A stretch of DNA of 64,000 nt from Paenirhizobium cremeum (GTDB taxonomy: Bacteria > Pseudomonadota > Alphaproteobacteria > Rhizobiales > Rhizobiaceae), in assembly GCF_022884085.1 (NCBI RefSeq), contig NZ_JAGGCS010000002.1, forward strand, positions 496,001 to 560,000, written 5' to 3'. The notes under the pieces are model-generated. The model searched no databases. It saw nothing but the letters and a program-made list of their open reading frames with translations, and had not been told where the DNA came from. Every line of letters starts with the position of its first letter. The first letter of the stretch is position 1. Of the stretch, positions 37,961-46,749 are shown piece by piece. The translations under genes were made by a program, and so were the position numbers.

Positions 37961-38977
37961 TCACTTCTTCAACGCCATGCCCACGCCCTTGCAGACGAAC
38001 TTCGTCGTATAGGCCTTCTTGTAGTCGAGGTCGGCCGGCTCGACACCGATCTGGACCATGGCGTCGAAGAATGCCTTGTATTTTTCATCCGTCATGCAGC
38101 CGATGCCCTTGTCGAGCGCCTCGGCGGATTCGACGATGCCGTATTCCTTCATCTTCTCTATGGAATAGGCGATCTGACCATCCGTCATTTCCGGATTGTC
38201 CTTCTTAATCAGGTCATTGGCGGCCTTGTTATCGCCGTAGAGGTAGTTGTACCAGCCTTCGATCGAAGCATCGACGAAGCGCTGCACGAGATCGGGGTTC
38301 TTCTCGACCAGTTCGGCGCTGGTGGTAATCATCGTTGAATAGGGCGAGTAGCCATTGTCGGCGAGCAGGAAGACCTTCGGCGTCCAGCCGGCCTGCTTCT
38401 CCACCTCGTAGGGCTCGGAGGTCAGGTAGCCCTGCTGTCCGGATTTCGGGTCGGCGATGAAGGGGGCCGGGTTGAAGGTGTAGGGCTTGTACTTCTCGTC
38501 GGTGAAGCCCTTGAAATTCTTCTTCATCCACTCGTAATAGGTGATGTAGCCGTCCTTGCCCATGAACAGTGTGTCGAGCTTGGCGAGATCGGCGAAGGTC
38601 TCGATGCCCTGGTCGGGATGGGCCATCAGCATCTGCGGGTCCTTCTGGAAGATGGACGCCACGTCGACCAGCGGAACGCCCTCCTTGACCGCATCCAGAC
38701 CCTGCAGCTGGCCGCCCATGTAGAACTCGACCTTGCCGGCGATCAGCAGCGCCCGGTTGGCGGCCTGGGGACCGCCCTGGACGATGGTGACCTTGAGGCC
38801 GTATTTCTCATAGGTGCCGTCCGCGACCGCCTGGTAGAAGCCGCCGTGCTCGGCCTGTGCGAGCCAGTTGGTGCCGTAGCTGACCTCGTCCAGTGCATAA
38901 GCCTGGCCGGCCAGCGAAAACGCCGCGGAGAGGCTAAGAGAAAGTGCGAGAGCCTTCAGTTTCAAAGAGCTATGCAT
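37961..38977 (-). CDS. ABC importer substrate-binding protein (NMT1/THI5-like)
   Basis: This 338-aa binding protein has a Sec signal peptide (about residues 1-29, cleavage after QAYA) and an NMT1/THI5-like body (GTNWLAQAEHGGFYQAVADGTYEKYGL, GGPQAANRALLIAGKVEFYMGG). Members bind pyrimidine precursors of thiamine, riboflavin or other nitrogen heterocycles. The ATG at 38977 follows AGGGGA. It is the first gene of the operon, divergent from the LysR gene, with the shared motif at 39057-39090 in its promoter region. Confidence 0.88.
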   Translation of the reverse strand: MHSSLKLKALALSLSLSAAFSLAGQAYALDEVSYGTNWLAQAEHGGFYQAVADGTYEKYGLKVTIVQGGPQAANRALLIAGKVEFYMGGQLQGLDAVKEGVPLVDVASIFQKDPQMLMAHPDQGIETFADLAKLDTLFMGKDGYITYYEWMKKNFKGFTDEKYKPYTFNPAPFIADPKSGQQGYLTSEPYEVEKQAGWTPKVFLLADNGYSPYSTMITTSAELVEKNPDLVQRFVDASIEGWYNYLYGDNKAANDLIKKDNPEMTDGQIAYSIEKMKEYGIVESAEALDKGIGCMTDEKYKAFFDAMVQIGVEPADLDYKKAYTTKFVCKGVGMALKK

Positions 38978-39056
38978 ATTTATGAGTTCCCCTGTTAAAC
39001 CTTGCGGCATCGTGAGACTGGCCGTTTTTGACATTTGAGCGATTGCGTTGCTCTTT

Positions 39057-39090
39057 GAAAAGCATCAAAATTCGTCCGCATTGATGCCTT
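39057..39090. promoter_or_regulatory. Bipartite site in the LysR/ABC-importer divergent promoter
   Basis: GAAAAGCATCA is followed after exactly 14 bases by TGATGCCTT. The identical arms and spacing recur at 40992-41025 upstream of the creatininase gene. The inverted GCATCA/TGATGC core is typical of a dimeric regulator. The site lies about 80 bases upstream of the binding-protein start and 70 bases upstream of the LysR start. Confidence 0.75.
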
Positions 39091-39159
39091 TTTTGCACTG
39101 CATCAGGGGCGGCTGCACAAATAATGCTTTCTGAATAAATTTTGCGCAATGGTGGGCCG

Positions 39160-40152
39160 GTGCTGCATTCCCGAAAACTTCTCTACATCAACGAAATCGT
39201 CCGCTGCGGTTCCATCCGCAAGGCGGCTGCGCGGCTGAACGTGGCCTCATCGGCGGTCAATCGCCAGATCCTGGCGCTGGAGGAAGAGCTCGGCGCGCCG
39301 ATTTTCGAGCGCCTGCCGAGGGGCTTGCGGCTGACGGCCGCGGGAGAGCTTTGCGTCGAGCACATCCGGGATGTGCTCAAGAACTACGAGCGCCTGGAGA
39401 CCCGCATTCGCGGACTGAAGATGCCCCAGGCCGGCAAGGTGACGCTGGTGACGACGGTGGGGCTTGCCTCCGGTCCCCTGCCGCCGATCCTTGCCCGTTT
39501 TCTCGAGAGCCATCCGCGCGTGCGCATCAAGCTCAGGAACGACAGCGGCTCGACGACCGTCAATCCGGTTCTGACGGGGGAAGTGGACATCGGTCTCGGC
39601 TTCAATATTCCGGCGACGCCGGGCATCCGGACGCTGGCCAATTTCGATGTGCCTGTCGGTGTCGTGCTGCCGCCTTCCCATCCGCTCGCACAGGAGGAGG
39701 GGCCGATCGATCTGGTCGACGTGGTGCAGGAAAAGCTGGTGCTGGCGCAATCGGGAACCAGCCTGCGCAATATCATAGACCTCGCGCTGTCGCCGCTGCC
39801 ACTGCCGGTCGAGCCGCTGCTGGAGACCAACTCGTCGGAGCTCATCAAGCAGCTGGTAAAGTGCGGCACGGGGCTGACGCTGCTCAATCCGCTCGACGTC
39901 ATCAGCGAATGCCGGGCCGGCGAACTGGTGTTCCGGCCGCTTTTCGAGCCGCATGTCAGACATCAGCCGATGCGGCTTTTTGCCCGGGCGAGGGCGCCGC
40001 TCGATGCGGCGACCAGCCTTTTCGTCGAATATCTGATGCAGGAACTGCTTCTGCTGATCCAGGAACTGCGTTCCAAAGGGCATCTGCCGGCGGGTGAAAA
40101 GGCGGCAGATCGCGCAGCCGATGCGCCGGATGACCGGGATCAGCGCGAATAG
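39160..40152 (+). CDS. LysR-family transcriptional regulator
   Basis: This 330-aa regulator has an N-terminal winged helix-turn-helix (YINEIVRCGSIRKAAARLNVASSAVNRQILALEEELG, about 8-42) and a C-terminal periplasmic-binding-protein-like effector domain. The GTG at 39160 gives the family-typical start x-LHSRKLLY; the frame is open back to a TTG at 39142. It is divergent from the ABC operon and its 3' end overlaps the convergent creatininase gene by 13 bases. It is the best candidate to bind the repeated site at 39057-39090 and 40992-41025. Confidence 0.88.
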   Translation: MLHSRKLLYINEIVRCGSIRKAAARLNVASSAVNRQILALEEELGAPIFERLPRGLRLTAAGELCVEHIRDVLKNYERLETRIRGLKMPQAGKVTLVTTVGLASGPLPPILARFLESHPRVRIKLRNDSGSTTVNPVLTGEVDIGLGFNIPATPGIRTLANFDVPVGVVLPPSHPLAQEEGPIDLVDVVQEKLVLAQSGTSLRNIIDLALSPLPLPVEPLLETNSSELIKQLVKCGTGLTLLNPLDVISECRAGELVFRPLFEPHVRHQPMRLFARARAPLDAATSLFVEYLMQELLLLIQELRSKGHLPAGEKAADRAADAPDDRDQRE

Positions 40153-40937
40153 AGGTTGGAAAGCGGGTAGGCGGCGAGGTCGCGCAGAAGCTCGATGAAG
40201 CCTTCTACCTGATGCTTGCAGATGAGTTCGCCCTTTTCGGCCGTGCCCTTGGAGGCATCGCCGACGACGCCGTTCGGGTTCAGGTCGTGGGCGATCCATG
40301 CCAGCGAATGGGGCGGCAGCGGCGTCAGGAATTTCGAGTTGGCACGCATTTCCTCGGCCCGGGAGACGAAGTTTTTCGCCTTTTCCATGCGAACGAGATC
40401 GGGCCGGAAGTAAAGCATCAGGGAGGTCTCGACCTCGCCGCCGTGAATGCCGTATCGGCTTTCATGCTCGGAGATCATGCCTTCCGGATTGCCGAAGCGG
40501 CCCCACTGGGTGGAGACGACCGCCATCTTGTGGCGGACGCGCAGCTCGCGGGCGACGATGCTCATGACGTCGACATTGCCGCCGTGGGAATTGACGATCA
40601 CCATCTTGCGGATGCCGGCTTCGGCGACCTTGGCGCCGATCGCGGTCCAGGCGGGAATGAGGATTTCGGGACCGAAGGACAGGGTGCCTGGACCGTAGAC
40701 ATGTTCGTTCGCCTTGCCGATTTCCTGGGTCGGCAGAACGAGGAAATCGAGATCGTCGGGCCGCTGGTTGCGAAGCTCGGCGAGCATGCCGTTGGCAATG
40801 GCGACATCGGTGGCAATCGGCAGGTGGGGGCCGTGCTGCTCCGTCGATGCGATCGGCAGGATGGCGATGGTCTTTTCCGGATCGAGGCCGGCGAAATCGC
40901 CCGTGTTCAGTTCGTTCCAGAAAAATGGCCTGGCCAT
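40140..40937 (-). CDS. Creatininase-family amidohydrolase
   Basis: This 265-aa protein has the family's metal ligands: Glu and His in STEQHGPHLPIATD (with the Asp), His in VNSHGGN and Glu in HGGEVETS. The family includes creatinine amidohydrolase, FAPy deformylase (ArfB) and MftE, all acting on amide bonds of small cyclic or peptide substrates. It is tail-to-tail with the LysR gene but shares its operator with the importer operon, which suggests it handles the same compound as the deaminase-like enzyme. Confidence 0.88.
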   Translation of the reverse strand: MARPFFWNELNTGDFAGLDPEKTIAILPIASTEQHGPHLPIATDVAIANGMLAELRNQRPDDLDFLVLPTQEIGKANEHVYGPGTLSFGPEILIPAWTAIGAKVAEAGIRKMVIVNSHGGNVDVMSIVARELRVRHKMAVVSTQWGRFGNPEGMISEHESRYGIHGGEVETSLMLYFRPDLVRMEKAKNFVSRAEEMRANSKFLTPLPPHSLAWIAHDLNPNGVVGDASKGTAEKGELICKHQVEGFIELLRDLAAYPLSNLYSR

Positions 40938-40991
40938 GTCCGCATCCTCGCTGTTTCCTTGCCTATTCGCTTAGGAAATAACGCGGGCTGA

Positions 40992-41025
40992 GAAAAGCAT
41001 CATATTGCGTGCAGGCTGATGCCTT
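40992..41025. promoter_or_regulatory. Second copy of the bipartite site, upstream of the creatininase gene
   Basis: GAAAAGCATCA-N14-TGATGCCTT lies 55-88 bases upstream of the creatininase start. Arms and spacing are identical to the copy at 39057-39090, while the 14-base spacers differ, which argues for a functional binding site rather than a recent duplication. Confidence 0.75.
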
Positions 41026-41248
41026 AAAGGTCGCGCAGAGACATTTCGGGCGGAACGGCGCTAACCGGTCCCGCCTGCCGCAGGAAGCATGCGTGTATCG
41101 ATTCGAGAAAAAGACGCTATTCGCTAAAATTGTCGGCATCTGTTTAAGCGCGCCGAAAAACACCCCGTGTAGGTTCGAGACACAAGGAAGCCGGAGGAAC
41201 TGTTCCGGCGCCGTCAAAAGAAAGAGTTCTGAACGGGGACCTGAGGAT

Positions 41249-41824
41249 ATGCTGAAGAAACTTCTCGCAACCGCCGTCGTCGCGGCGACGGCATTCGTCC
41301 TGTCCGATCCGGCCCATGCTTTCGGGCCTGGCGGTTTCGCCCGCAATCTCACCGATGCGCCGACGATGCGTCTCGTCATTTCCGGCGAACGGGTTGCGTC
41401 GAGCGACGCGAAGCTCTGCACCGATGCACAGGAGGACTGCCTTGCTATCGAGCGCCCCTACACGTTCGTCCTCACCTCGTATCGCGAAAGCCAGCTGAAG
41501 CGTGTCAACGCCACGGTTAACGCCTCGGTCCGGCTTATCAACGACTTCTTTTCGTTCGGTCGCCGCGACGTTCTGAAGATTTCCAGCCCGGTGAACTTCG
41601 GTTCCGATCTTGCCGGCGCCAAGCGCGCGATGCTGATCGCCATGGGCTGGTCGCCGGAGGCGCTGACGATTGCCACCGGCCGCACGGCCGACGGCGAGCG
41701 CCGGGTGGTTCTCGTGGTCACCACCAACAAGGGCGACTACGCGCTCGACGACCGCTCGAACGCGATCAAGAAGTGGAAGCGCGTCGAGATCCCGACCGCA
41801 AGCATTCGCCCGATGGGGCTTTAA
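41249..41824 (+). CDS. Transglutaminase-like (BTLCP) protein lacking the catalytic residues
   Basis: This 191-aa protein has a signal peptide (cleavage near DPAHA) and a body that aligns with bacterial transglutaminase-like cysteine proteinases (BTLCP): NATVNASVRLINDFF, then KRAMLIAMGWSPEALTI, VVLVVTTNKGDYALDDRSNAI. In the family the core reads GDCEDY for the catalytic Cys and GHAVL for the His. Here the matching segments are NFGSDLAG and ERRVVLV, so both are gone while the Asp region (YALDD) remains. It is probably a secreted pseudoenzyme. ATG 41249 follows GAGGA; the frame extends upstream but is not coding-like. Confidence 0.75.
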   Translation: MLKKLLATAVVAATAFVLSDPAHAFGPGGFARNLTDAPTMRLVISGERVASSDAKLCTDAQEDCLAIERPYTFVLTSYRESQLKRVNATVNASVRLINDFFSFGRRDVLKISSPVNFGSDLAGAKRAMLIAMGWSPEALTIATGRTADGERRVVLVVTTNKGDYALDDRSNAIKKWKRVEIPTASIRPMGL

Positions 41825-41887
41825 AGAATTCTTCGGGGCGGAGAGTTTTCCGTCCGGCTGAATGTTTCTGTCTGTACTGCCGATTTG

Positions 41888-41920
41888 CCCTGATGGTGTG
41901 AACCACCATCAGGGCCTTTT
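41888..41920 (+). terminator. Intrinsic terminator of the BTLCP-like gene
   Basis: CCCTGATGGTG (41888-41898) and CACCATCAGGG (41904-41914) form a perfect 11-bp stem with a 5-base loop, followed by CCTTTT. It lies between two convergent genes. Confidence 0.85.
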
Positions 41921-41928
41921 CCTTTGTG

Positions 41929-42828
41929 TCAGGTCTTGTTCAGCGGCTTGCCCCATTCGGCGATGGCGATACCGCCGAGGACGAGGGCGAGTGCTAGGAC
42001 ATGGAAAGGCTGAAGCGCCTCGCCGAGCAGGAAGAGCGAAAGAAGCGTTCCGAACACCGGCACCAGATTGATGAAGAGGCCGGCCCGGTTGGCGCCGATA
42101 CCTTCGACACCCTTGATATAGAAGATCTGCGAGATCAGCGACGGCAGCAGGCCGGCATAGGCGATGATCGCCCATCCCGTTGCATCGGGCAGGATCATTC
42201 CACCGTTCGCGCGTTCCCAGAAGACCAGCGGCAGGGCGGTCAGCGCCGCCCCGAGCGCCGGGCCGGCCATCAGGCTCTTCCAGTGCACCGGCGGCTTCCA
42301 GCGCAGCGCGATGGTGTAGATCGCATAGGCGAGCACGGCGAGCAGCATCAATCCGTCACCATAGTTCAGGGTGAGGTGGAGCAGCGACATCGGATCGCCG
42401 TGGCTTGCCGTAAGGGCAACGCCGGCAAAGCTGATGGCGAAGCCGATGATCTGCACCGGCGAGACCGGGATGCGGAAGAGCACGAAGTTGAGGATGAAGA
42501 TCAGGACCGGAATGCCGCCCTGCTCGATCGCGCCGTTGACGGCGCTGGTATATTTGAGGGCGGTATAGAGAAAGCCGTTGAAGGCCGTGTAGCCGATCGC
42601 GCCATAGGCGAGCAGCAGCAGCCAGTTCTTGCGCAGCAGCGGCCAGTCCTTTCTGATCTGCGGCACGGAGATGGCGCAAATGACAAGGACGGCAATCAGC
42701 CAGCGTGAGAAGTTCAGCATCATGGGGCTGACATGGCCGACGGCAAGCTTGCCGACCATGGTGTTGCCGCCCCAGAGAAGCGTCGCGACGGTGAGGAAAA
42801 AATAGGCTCGAAGAAGCAACTGCAACAC
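41929..42828 (-). CDS. EamA/DMT-family transporter
   Basis: This 299-aa protein has ten predicted helices in two EamA repeats (LWGGNTMVGKLAVGHVSPMML near the start; INLVPVFGTLLSLFLLGEAL in the second half). It exports an unknown metabolite. It is divergent from purA with about 185 bases between. Confidence 0.88.
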   Translation of the reverse strand: MLQLLLRAYFFLTVATLLWGGNTMVGKLAVGHVSPMMLNFSRWLIAVLVICAISVPQIRKDWPLLRKNWLLLLAYGAIGYTAFNGFLYTALKYTSAVNGAIEQGGIPVLIFILNFVLFRIPVSPVQIIGFAISFAGVALTASHGDPMSLLHLTLNYGDGLMLLAVLAYAIYTIALRWKPPVHWKSLMAGPALGAALTALPLVFWERANGGMILPDATGWAIIAYAGLLPSLISQIFYIKGVEGIGANRAGLFINLVPVFGTLLSLFLLGEALQPFHVLALALVLGGIAIAEWGKPLNKT

Positions 42829-43013
42829 CAGATGGTATAAGGGAAGGGATGTGCTTTACGGCAATTTGCCGTTTGGATAGGCGACGGGAGGCGCCATGTC
42901 ACGCAAAAAGCCAAATTGCTGGTCACAAACAGGTCGATTTCCCAAAAACAACACAGTATAGATGCGCGGGTTTGGGTTAGGCGCAGGTGCTGCGCAATGA
43001 ACAGGATTTGGAA

Positions 43014-44312
43014 ATGACGAATGTCGTGGTTGTAGGGTCGCAGTGGGGAGACGAAGGTAAAGGCAAGATCGTCGACTGGCTTTCCGAGCGGGCCGATATC
43101 GTCGTGCGCTTCCAGGGCGGACACAATGCCGGGCATACGCTGGTCATCGACGGTGTCAGCTACAAGCTATCGCTGCTGCCCTCCGGTGTCGTGCGGCCCG
43201 GCAAGATGGCCGTGATCGGCAACGGCGTCGTCGTCGATCCCCACGCGCTCCTGGCCGAAATCGAGCGCCTCAAGGCACAGGGCGTTTCGGTGACCCCGGA
43301 CAACCTGCGAATCGCGGAAAACGCCACCCTCATTCTTTCCCTTCACCGCGAACTGGACGGCATGCGCGAGGACGCCGCCTCCAACAGCGGCACCAAGATC
43401 GGCACGACGCGCCGCGGCATCGGCCCGGCCTATGAAGACAAGGTCGGCCGTCGCGCGATCCGCCTGATGGAGCTTGCCGACGTTGCCGCCCTCGAAGGCA
43501 AGGTCGACCGCCTGCTGTCGCATCACAACGCGCTTCGTCGCGGCTTCGGCGCGGCCGAAGTCGAGCACAAGACGATCATGGAGGAACTGACCTCCATCGC
43601 CGACCGCGTGCTGCCTTTCATGGATACCGTCTGGCAGTTGCTCGACAAGGAACGTCGCAAGGGCTCGCGCATCCTGTTCGAGGGCGCCCAGGGATCGCTG
43701 CTCGACATCGACCACGGCACTTATCCGTTCGTGACGTCGTCCAACACCGTCGCAGGACAGGCTGCCGCCGGTTCGGGCATGGGGCCGGGCTCGCTCGGTT
43801 ATATCCTCGGCATCACCAAGGCCTATACGACCCGCGTCGGTGAGGGTCCGTTCCCGACCGAACTGACGGATGAGATCGGACAGTTCCTCGGCGAGCGCGG
43901 CCATGAATTCGGTACGGTCACGGGGCGCAAGCGCCGTTGCGGCTGGTTCGACGCGGCACTGGTTCGCCAGTCGGTCGCGACCAACGGCATTACCGGCATT
44001 GCTCTTACGAAGCTCGACGTGCTCGATGGCCTCGACGAACTCAAGATCTGCGTCGGTTACAGGCTGGACGGGCAGGAGATCGACTATCTTCCGGCATCCC
44101 AGGCCGCACAGGCCCGCGTCGAGCCGATCTATATCACGCTCGAAGGCTGGCAGCAGTCGACCGTCGGTGCGCGCAAATGGGCGGACCTGCCGGCGCAGGC
44201 GATCAAGTATGTCCGGCAGGTGGAGGAGCTGATCGGTGCGCCGGTAGCACTTCTTTCCACCAGCCCGGAGCGCGACGACACCATACTTGTGACCGACCCG
44301 TTTGAGGATTAA
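43014..44312 (+). CDS. purA: Adenylosuccinate synthetase
   Basis: This 432-aa enzyme makes adenylosuccinate from IMP, aspartate and GTP, the first committed step to AMP. It has the N-terminal GTP loop [11 protein letters not shown] (8-18) with the catalytic Asp, [22 protein letters not shown] and the C-terminal guanine-binding [15 protein letters not shown]. Length is normal. The ATG at 43014 follows AGGA; the frame extends a few codons upstream without homology. Confidence 0.97.
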
Positions 44313-44373
44313 TGGTAGAAATCGTTAACGTTTTGTCTGTCGGAATCGGTCCGGCGACCAAGAGAAAGTACTG

Positions 44374-46749
44374 ATGGCCGACTTTATCGCAGTTATTCGG
44401 CGGGCCGTGGATGGGCTGTCGAACAATACACCCGAGATGCGTGCGAAGGTCTATGACAAGGCTCGCAGTGCCGTCATGCGGCAGCTCGAGAACATGTCGC
44501 CGCGCCCGCCGGAGGAGATGCTGCGCCGTCAACTCGACAAGCTCGAGGCCGCCATCAACGAAGTCGAGGCCGAGCATGCGGAAGCACTTCCGGAAGTAGA
44601 GGAACTTCCCGAAGAGGCTCCCGCTGCGCTCGCCGAAGCATCCTGGGAGGATCACGTTCCCGGTGTTTCCGAGTCCCGGCAGGCGCCCGCCTATGAGGCC
44701 GTGGAAGAGCCTGAACCGGTTCATGAGCCGGAGCAGGCCTACGAGCCGGAACCGGAAGAAGCGGCAGAGCCTGAAGAGGCTGCTCGCCCCGAACACGAAG
44801 ACGAGTCTCATGTTGCTCCCGTAACTCCTGCGTCCACGCAGGTCGCATGGGCCGAGGAGCCGGTCGCGGCTGCCGCCGACGAGACTTATCGCGCGCACGA
44901 AGAAGAATATGTCGAGCCTGCTCGCGCCGCTCCGTCGGTGGAATACGAAGAGGTCGAAGACCCCTGGCAGGACGCCGACCCGGAAGCGCCTTCCTATCCG
45001 CCTGTCGTCGCAGCCCGCGAGCCGGAGGCTGTCGAGCCCGCCTTGCCGGAGGCCGAACCGGCGCCGGCCGAGGCGCCCCATGCCGTGCCCCCTTTTCCCG
45101 TCTGGGACGAGGAGCCGCGTCTTCGCCAGGAAGAGGAGCCGGTCGAGCCGGTTCATCCGGCCAGGGAGACCGCCCCCCTGACGGAGGAGGCCGAGGAATG
45201 GCTTTCGCCGGCCCGCTCCGATTTCACCGCGAAGCCTGCGCCGGTTTCCGAGCCCGTCGCCTACGAGCCTTGGGATTTCCCGGAGGATACGACGCCTCAC
45301 CCGGCACGAGCCGAAGACGTCGTGCCGGCTGTCCAACGGCAGGAGCCGGCTCCGGCCGCGTCGGAGCCGCGCCGGGACCATGATTTCGGCAGTTTCGCTT
45401 CCGCCGGCCGCGCCGAGCCCGTTTCGACGGAGGTTCCGGACCTTCTCGAATGGAATGTCGATGAATATCGTTCTCCGGCGGTGCCCGAATCGAATGCAGC
45501 CGCCGGCACCCCGAAGCAGACTGACGCATTTTCGGACTGGTTTGCCGATGTCGGCGACCTGAAGTCCAAGGAGCCGCTGCCGGCTCCGGGCAATGGCAAT
45601 GGAGGAAGGCCGGGCGCGCCGATGGCGGCCGCTGCCGCGACTTCTGCCTCCCCCGACGAAGAGGTCGATGCCTTCCTGGAAAGCGCGCAGCAATCGGCCT
45701 ATCGCAAGGAGACGAAGCCGCGGCGAAATTTCGCCCCGATCGTGCTCGGTGGGCTCGGCATCCTGCTTCTGGCCGGCGGCGGTTTCGCCGCATGGACCTA
45801 TCGCGCCTCCATGGCGGAGTTCGTGAGCGGCCTGACCGGTTCCGAACCGCCCTTCATCGCCGAGAAGCCGGCGACGGACCAGGTTGAGCAACCGGCGGAT
45901 GCGGCACCGGCGACCGATGACGCCGCCGCTCCCGAGGCAAAGCCGCCGGAAGAAGGGGCCGTTCAGGGCCGGAAATTCACCCAGCGTCTGCTGGCCAACG
46001 GGTCCGAGGTCGACGAGGGCGCCGGAACGGCTGCGGCGACGGGCACCGGCACTGAAGGCCGTTCTGTTTCCGAGCAGAATGTCGCCTCGACCGTCGAGCC
46101 GACCGACCAGCCGCCGGTCGGCACCAATGCGGGCGCTCCCGCAGCGCCGGCGACCGCGACCCCTCCGGCAGCCGGCGCCACCGCCGCCACGGCTGCGGGT
46201 GAAAAGGCATTCCTCTACGAGGAGAAGCTCGGGCAGACATCGCCTGTTGCGGTGACGGGGACAGTCGCCTGGACCGCGGTGCGCGAGACCGGCGAGGACG
46301 GCAAGCCCAATCCGGAGATCCAGGGCAAGATCGCCATTCCGGAACGCGGCATGACGGTGCTGATGACCATCAAGCGCAATACCGACAACTCGCTGCCGGC
46401 AAGCCACATCATCGAGGTCGTTTTCTCCATACCGCCTGATTTCGAAGGCGGTGCCGTCGACAACCTTCAGCGAATCGCGATGAAGCGCACGGAGCAGGAT
46501 CGCGGCGACCCGCTGGTCGCGGTCTCGGCACAGGTGACGGAAGACACCTATCTCGTGGCCCTCAACGACTTCGAGGATGTCATCAAGCGCAACCTGGACC
46601 TTCTGTCCACGCGCGGCTGGATCGACATGCCGATCACCTACCGCAACGGTCGCCGGGCGCTGCTGACGCTCGACAAGGGTGCTGCCGGAGCCGCCGTCTT
46701 CGACGCGGTGCTGAAGGAATGGGCGGCGCTGGGATCGGCCGGCAACTGA
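44374..46749 (+). CDS. Large acidic single-span membrane protein, unknown function
   Basis: This 791-aa protein has three parts. The N-terminus (1-70) is helical and charged. Residues about 70-440 are extremely rich in Glu, Pro and Ala (runs such as EEPEPVHEPEQAYEPEPEE), probably disordered. One span (IVLGGLGILLLAGGGFAAW, about 454-472) leads to a second low-complexity linker, and a compact C-terminal domain of about 160 residues (YEEKLGQTSPVAVTGTVAW to the end) would be periplasmic if the N-terminus is inside. It lies between purA and rpoH and ends at a strong terminator. I do not recognise a family. Confidence 0.8.
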   Translation: MADFIAVIRRAVDGLSNNTPEMRAKVYDKARSAVMRQLENMSPRPPEEMLRRQLDKLEAAINEVEAEHAEALPEVEELPEEAPAALAEASWEDHVPGVSESRQAPAYEAVEEPEPVHEPEQAYEPEPEEAAEPEEAARPEHEDESHVAPVTPASTQVAWAEEPVAAAADETYRAHEEEYVEPARAAPSVEYEEVEDPWQDADPEAPSYPPVVAAREPEAVEPALPEAEPAPAEAPHAVPPFPVWDEEPRLRQEEEPVEPVHPARETAPLTEEAEEWLSPARSDFTAKPAPVSEPVAYEPWDFPEDTTPHPARAEDVVPAVQRQEPAPAASEPRRDHDFGSFASAGRAEPVSTEVPDLLEWNVDEYRSPAVPESNAAAGTPKQTDAFSDWFADVGDLKSKEPLPAPGNGNGGRPGAPMAAAAATSASPDEEVDAFLESAQQSAYRKETKPRRNFAPIVLGGLGILLLAGGGFAAWTYRASMAEFVSGLTGSEPPFIAEKPATDQVEQPADAAPATDDAAAPEAKPPEEGAVQGRKFTQRLLANGSEVDEGAGTAAATGTGTEGRSVSEQNVASTVEPTDQPPVGTNAGAPAAPATATPPAAGATAATAAGEKAFLYEEKLGQTSPVAVTGTVAWTAVRETGEDGKPNPEIQGKIAIPERGMTVLMTIKRNTDNSLPASHIIEVVFSIPPDFEGGAVDNLQRIAMKRTEQDRGDPLVAVSAQVTEDTYLVALNDFEDVIKRNLDLLSTRGWIDMPITYRNGRRALLTLDKGAAGAAVFDAVLKEWAALGSAGN

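Follow-up and report, generated by a model that had tools for sequence, protein, structure and literature searches.

The gene at positions 41249–41824 (+ strand) of the window (the whole 64,000-nucleotide stretch of Paenirhizobium cremeum DNA analyzed here) encodes a 191-aa member of the bacterial transglutaminase-like cysteine proteinase (BTLCP) family, PF06035, that lacks the catalytic Cys and His. By sequence the protein belongs to this family, but judged by its residues it is no cysteine proteinase. We consider it probable that it is a periplasmic pseudoenzyme of the LapG/HvyA type, selected for a noncatalytic job that is most likely binding.

The open reading frame, its start, and its stop agree with those given in the sequence-only reading of this DNA. 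Pfam returned PF06035 (Peptidase_C93/BTLCP) as the sole match (78.1 bits, E 8.2e-22, above the curated cut-off of 27 bits), and an NCBIfam search with the protein returned no families. Three weak matches to terpene synthases (E 0.8) in a single-sequence PDB search were taken as chance. A signal peptide spotted by eye (residues 1–24, ending AHA; 41249–41320, + strand) suggests export to the periplasm. Besides this signal peptide, the sequence-only reading had singled out the two Cys of CTDAQEDC (41417–41440, + strand). The two Cys are there, but the motif was rejected as a special one: an alignment shows it to be the family's conserved pair, Cys57 and Cys64 here, found in 34 of 34 rows whether or not the triad is intact. 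The two Cys probably form a disulfide.

The alignment has 34 rows after three duplicate copies were dropped, and these were picked nonrandomly, either as best matches to the window protein or as paralogues from its own genome. All 29 rows other than the window protein, its three orthologues, and a gene in genome G183 have an intact Cys/His/Asp triad (C/H/D). As proposed earlier, the Cys and His motifs are replaced and only the Asp region remains. Gly118 (GGT, 41600–41602, + strand) takes the place of the nucleophile Cys, Arg152 (CGG, 41702–41704, + strand) that of the catalytic His, and Asp167 (GAC, 41747–41749, + strand), the third triad residue, is kept, with LDN changed to LDD. The active-site stretch GDCEDxAxTKR of relatives reads NFGSDLAGAKR in the window protein, EGHAVLVV reads ERRVVLVV, and VLDN reads ALDD. 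Composition excludes the finding that would have overturned the earlier claim, a catalytic Cys and His located at other positions: the only Cys and His residues of the whole protein are Cys57, Cys64, and His23, and because His23 lies inside the signal peptide, the exported protein could have no other Cys/His pair. The G195 orthologue has one extra His (65), absent from the others. It is very improbable that the protein has remained enzymatically active by using another nucleophile, such as Ser119, or other chemistry. Asp167 and Asp120 are kept and Ser119 stands beside the old nucleophile position in all four genomes of the clade formed by the window and its close orthologues, but the mature window protein lacks His altogether, its only Cys are the conserved pair, and we know of no Ser-based BTLCP.

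The losses extend beyond the triad. At a threshold of 92% or more, the 29 triad-intact rows share 31 conserved columns, of which 20 are retained in the window clade and 26 in the G183 protein. Gone from the clade are the D and E flanking the Cys (predicted calcium-binding positions in DvhG), replaced in the window protein by F117 and S119; D120 is kept, and the G183 protein retains both D and E. The clade also lacks a Trp found in 29 of 29 triad-intact rows (Leu109 in the window protein; 41573–41575, + strand), the APFAHV segment, and a C-terminal stretch, a strand, with its Trp. Going by a Trp–Cys spacing of 14, which LapG also has, the first of these Trp residues is probably the equivalent of HvyA W178, and a W178S allele of HvyA is described as failing (PMC4241560). 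It is not a LapD-binding Trp, as W125/W126 is assigned to LapD and CdgS9 rather than LapG in the text available (PMC4359373). Taken together, these losses outside the triad make simple occupation of the old substrate site less likely.

Structure prediction suggests that the transglutaminase/papain-like fold core is preserved. A first model, on 3 sequences (pLDDT 34), was set aside. The AlphaFold2 model built on 25 sequences has a mean pLDDT of 60, with 78–93 at residues 71–90 and 121–180 and values below 50 at residues 1–57 and 96–116. Foldseek gave LapG as the best match (E 3.2e-4 to 1.7e-3; prob 1.00 and TM-score 0.42 at E 3.2e-4) with TM-scores of only 0.41–0.45, as did VIA-align (Z 12.5, rmsd 2.9, 107 residues), where the first non-LapG entry was streptococcal TglA (Z 8.2). 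The match to LapG spans about residues 76–191 only. A sequence profile that combines 12 relatives with the window protein also finds LapG (4u65, E 3.8e-8; 4fgo, E 2.9e-7). AlphaFold and HMMER, used here in place of HHpred, bear out the fold pattern recognized in the sequence-only reading: the protein can be aligned, by its sequence as well as by its model, to LapG and to members with an intact triad.

The dead gene, as we call it for its lost catalytic residues, is under strong purifying selection. Between the window and the three orthologues, dN is 0.051–0.055 and dS 0.45–0.49 by NG86 (0.048–0.050 and 0.64–0.71 by YN00), a dN/dS of about 0.11. There are 50–52.5 synonymous and 21–22.5 nonsynonymous differences (Fisher p 2.1e-17 to 3e-18), and by codon position the differences number 9–12, 9, and 53–55. 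A triad-intact paralogue compared over the same species, the C4 type described below, gives 0.14–0.16 by NG86 and 0.15–0.20 by YN00, with a frame that included a few codons ahead of the start. Neighboring genes are tighter (NG86, window versus G168: EamA about 0.09, creatininase 0.06). By these ratios the constraint on the dead gene is no weaker than that on the C4 type and resembles what an ordinary exported paralogue experiences, but falls short of that on creatininase. In protein trees the stem branch of the clade measures 1.1–1.3 changes per site, versus about 0.1 within the clade; the stem of the flanking genes measures 0.085. Fast change came first and constraint afterwards. The long stem and the shortened C-terminus are what a decaying pseudogene on its way out might leave, but the frame is open in four of four clade genomes, an upstream element is retained, and Fisher p is 2.1e-17 or less; we reject this reading on the dN/dS of about 0.11 and regard it as scarcely credible. 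Catalytic residues have been lost and the protein has been kept by selection, the combination that defines a pseudoenzyme.

The same replacements occur in relatives. Of the 63 genomes surveyed in the genus, 11 yield a match with an E-value no higher than 1e-20, and in three of these the orthologue is full length, 90% identical, and G/R/D at the triad positions, which answers the earlier question of whether orthologues also lack the residues. The window and these three genomes have the common order NMT1–LysR–creatininase–gene–EamA–purA (37961–46749 in the window; purA was named by eye, the other neighbors by Pfam). Downstream of purA, window positions 44374–46749 encode a 791-aa acidic protein with no Pfam match that is 78–79% identical in three close relatives and 45–56% identical, in pieces, in two others. 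In G183 the corresponding place, flanked by the same creatininase and EamA, holds a gene 46% identical to the dead gene; it too reads G/R/D but retains the calcium positions, the Trp, and the C-terminus. In G179 and G211 a C/H/D copy adjoins EamA; creatininase lies about 8 kb further off in G179, and in G211 that side is covered for 1.5 kb only. EamA occurs in 62 genomes and its locus was covered in 30, of which five contain the gene, dead in four cases and triad-intact in one, and six are empty sites with 129–157 bp between creatininase and EamA. The other 19 have no BTLCP within 1.5 kb, with creatininase further off in 4 and out of reach in 15. G172, G192, and G161 combine an empty site with triad-intact subfamily copies elsewhere, which are in tandem in G192 and G161. 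Since a single genus offers related species in which the gene is dead, triad-intact, or absent, comparing them gives a way to test what it does.

In a sample of 394 genomes of the family (a few from the same genus), 10 have a match at 1e-20; eight of these are from other genera, and all eight are C/H/D. Relatives on viral contigs number 31, and the 30 that were readable are all C/H/D, a set that is no fair survey because the active site formed part of the search pattern. Within the genus, one loss or two would fit the sequences alike. Protein trees join the G183 gene with the window clade (support 85/87 and 79/83) across two long branches about which the program warned. The AU test also accepts trees in which G183 groups with G172 (p-AU 0.15) or the window clade with G192/G161 (p-AU 0.21), and dropping either dead group left the other without firm placement. 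A tree of flanking sequence from 25 of the 63 genomes puts G183 beside G172 (94/90, not starred), whose copy is triad-intact.

Upstream of the dead gene lies the element TAAAATT-N12-TTAAG (41125–41148, + strand), which also accompanies triad-intact members of the subfamily. It occurs once in the 5.3 Mb of the genome, ahead of the dead gene. It also precedes dead and triad-intact subfamily members across the genus, as well as the genes in G029, G310, and G255. The exact element is absent ahead of the C4-type genes and of those in G047, G117, G014, G251, G305, and G371 (for G371, within the 381 upstream bases available). Its TAAAAT may be a −10 box, and its retention suggests that expression of the dead gene has been kept. 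MucR/Ros and CtrA are both described as acting on hvyA. No TTAA-N7-TTAA was seen by eye, and a literature search turned up no usable Ros box containing this core; as neither a MucR/Ros nor a CtrA site was supported, we claim no regulator. Rfam returned no matches in 40900–41950. About 100 bases of leader (41149–41248) separate the element from the start, with the conserved word CGTGTAG and GAACGGGGA ahead of the ATG in the alignment. A terminator-like hairpin with a T-rich tail follows the gene (41887–41915, + strand), one of 2 such sites in the window versus 1.4 expected in shuffles. Gene, element, and terminator-like site behave like a movable unit, with empty sites, tandem copies (G192, G161), and copies elsewhere (G172, G171). 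Comparison of the window with six loci (L101, L104, L106, L107, L108, and L112) puts this promoter–gene–terminator unit, absent from relatives' empty sites, at approximately 41030–41928, with boundaries set by eye.

The search for an active paralogue elsewhere, suggested in the sequence-only reading, was productive. PF06035 matches eight places in the genome, and the seven other than the dead gene all read C/H/D in sequence. They represent six distinct proteins, as the copy on contig C16 is identical to that on C4. The C4-type paralogue (G000:C4:158912–159541) is 33% identical to the window protein; both are PF06035, and only the C4 type has the full triad. A 17,866-base stretch running to the end of contig C4 (G000:C4:150000–167865) is 100% identical on G000:C16:1–19000 (L087, L088); either this large region was duplicated recently or its second copy is an artefact of assembly, and the C4-type gene is doubled with it. 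Two further triad-intact types (L006-like and L007-like) are present in the four genomes of the window clade. Three other matches lie in G176, G180, and G183 (E 1e-31 to 2e-32, or 5e-31), and the G183 match, the sole one of the three inspected, is C/H/D and by eye neither L006-like nor L007-like. L165 (G170:C16:21885–22217) is unlike the shorter members, a 351-aa open frame in which a C/H/D BTLCP domain follows a long N-terminal extension.

These paralogues bear on how the dead protein might work. As the main special case of binding, it could be a competitive decoy that binds the substrate or receptor of an active BTLCP, such as the C4 type, and so restrains it. C4-type paralogues (at least 75% identity) occur in 4 of the 63 genus genomes, exactly the four with the 90%-identical dead gene, and the dead gene has its upstream element in common with triad-intact subfamily members. 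Against this, the four genomes form one clade, so the co-occurrence is a single event rather than four; the C4-type loci lack the exact element, and the substrate-side segments are eroded. We therefore hold the decoy to be possible but rather doubtful.

The pseudoenzyme proposed at the outset draws support, as a conserved one, from the residue loss, the orthologues, and the selection; its periplasmic location is deduced from the signal peptide, and a binding role would suit it. We envisage an ancestral enzyme that lost its nucleophile and base and went through a period of rapid change, after which strong purifying selection set in for a task that requires the folded, presumably stable domain without catalysis. 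The dead protein would then hold a protein partner or the former substrate in the periplasm or, alternatively, compete for either with the cell's active BTLCP paralogues, and perhaps acts in the pathway of one of them. A bolder proposal, which we think unlikely, is a natural pseudo-BTLCP that regulates active envelope-modifying paralogues in Rhizobiaceae and that arose twice at one locus, with identical Cys-to-Gly and His-to-Arg replacements each time, once the gain of new active paralogues had freed the old enzyme.

From the periplasm, the BTLCPs LapG and HvyA control adhesins and capsule, respectively, and the members described in the studies cited here work by catalysis. If our reading is true, a dead member under strong selection beside six distinct triad-intact paralogues would amount to a noncatalytic layer of control. 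The matches listed in the open-access literature included no inactive, conserved BTLCP. LapG of Pseudomonas and Legionella (PDB 4u65, 4fgo, 4fgp, 4fgq) is the nearest solved relative by sequence profile and model, but it is an active protease with a C-H-D triad and bound calcium, whereas the window protein lacks nucleophile, base, and calcium-ligand positions. HvyA of Caulobacter crescentus, an exported alphaproteobacterial BTLCP, as the window protein would also be, is described as preventing capsulation in G1 cells (PMC4241560). Its C192S/A, H226Q/A, and D241A alleles are nonfunctional, and the positions of C192 and H226, needed in HvyA, are naturally replaced in the window protein, so it is not expected to work as HvyA does. 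DvhG of Desulfovibrio vulgaris has the BTLCP fold, and the residues on either side of its Cys matter: D316A/E318A and C317A are reported as inactive, D316 and E318 being the predicted calcium-binding positions (PMC13090378). The window protein differs in having F117-G118-S119 at D316-C317-E318. Inactive papain-like proteins with scaffold or other noncatalytic roles are known, including menin, EPB42, and FBXO21; the part of that survey available names no inactive C93 member (PMC10318531). Menin, EPB42, and FBXO21 have lost catalysis as the window protein has, but belong to different families. Pseudoenzymes are already known in the wider papain-like superfamily, and the window protein would be a BTLCP example.
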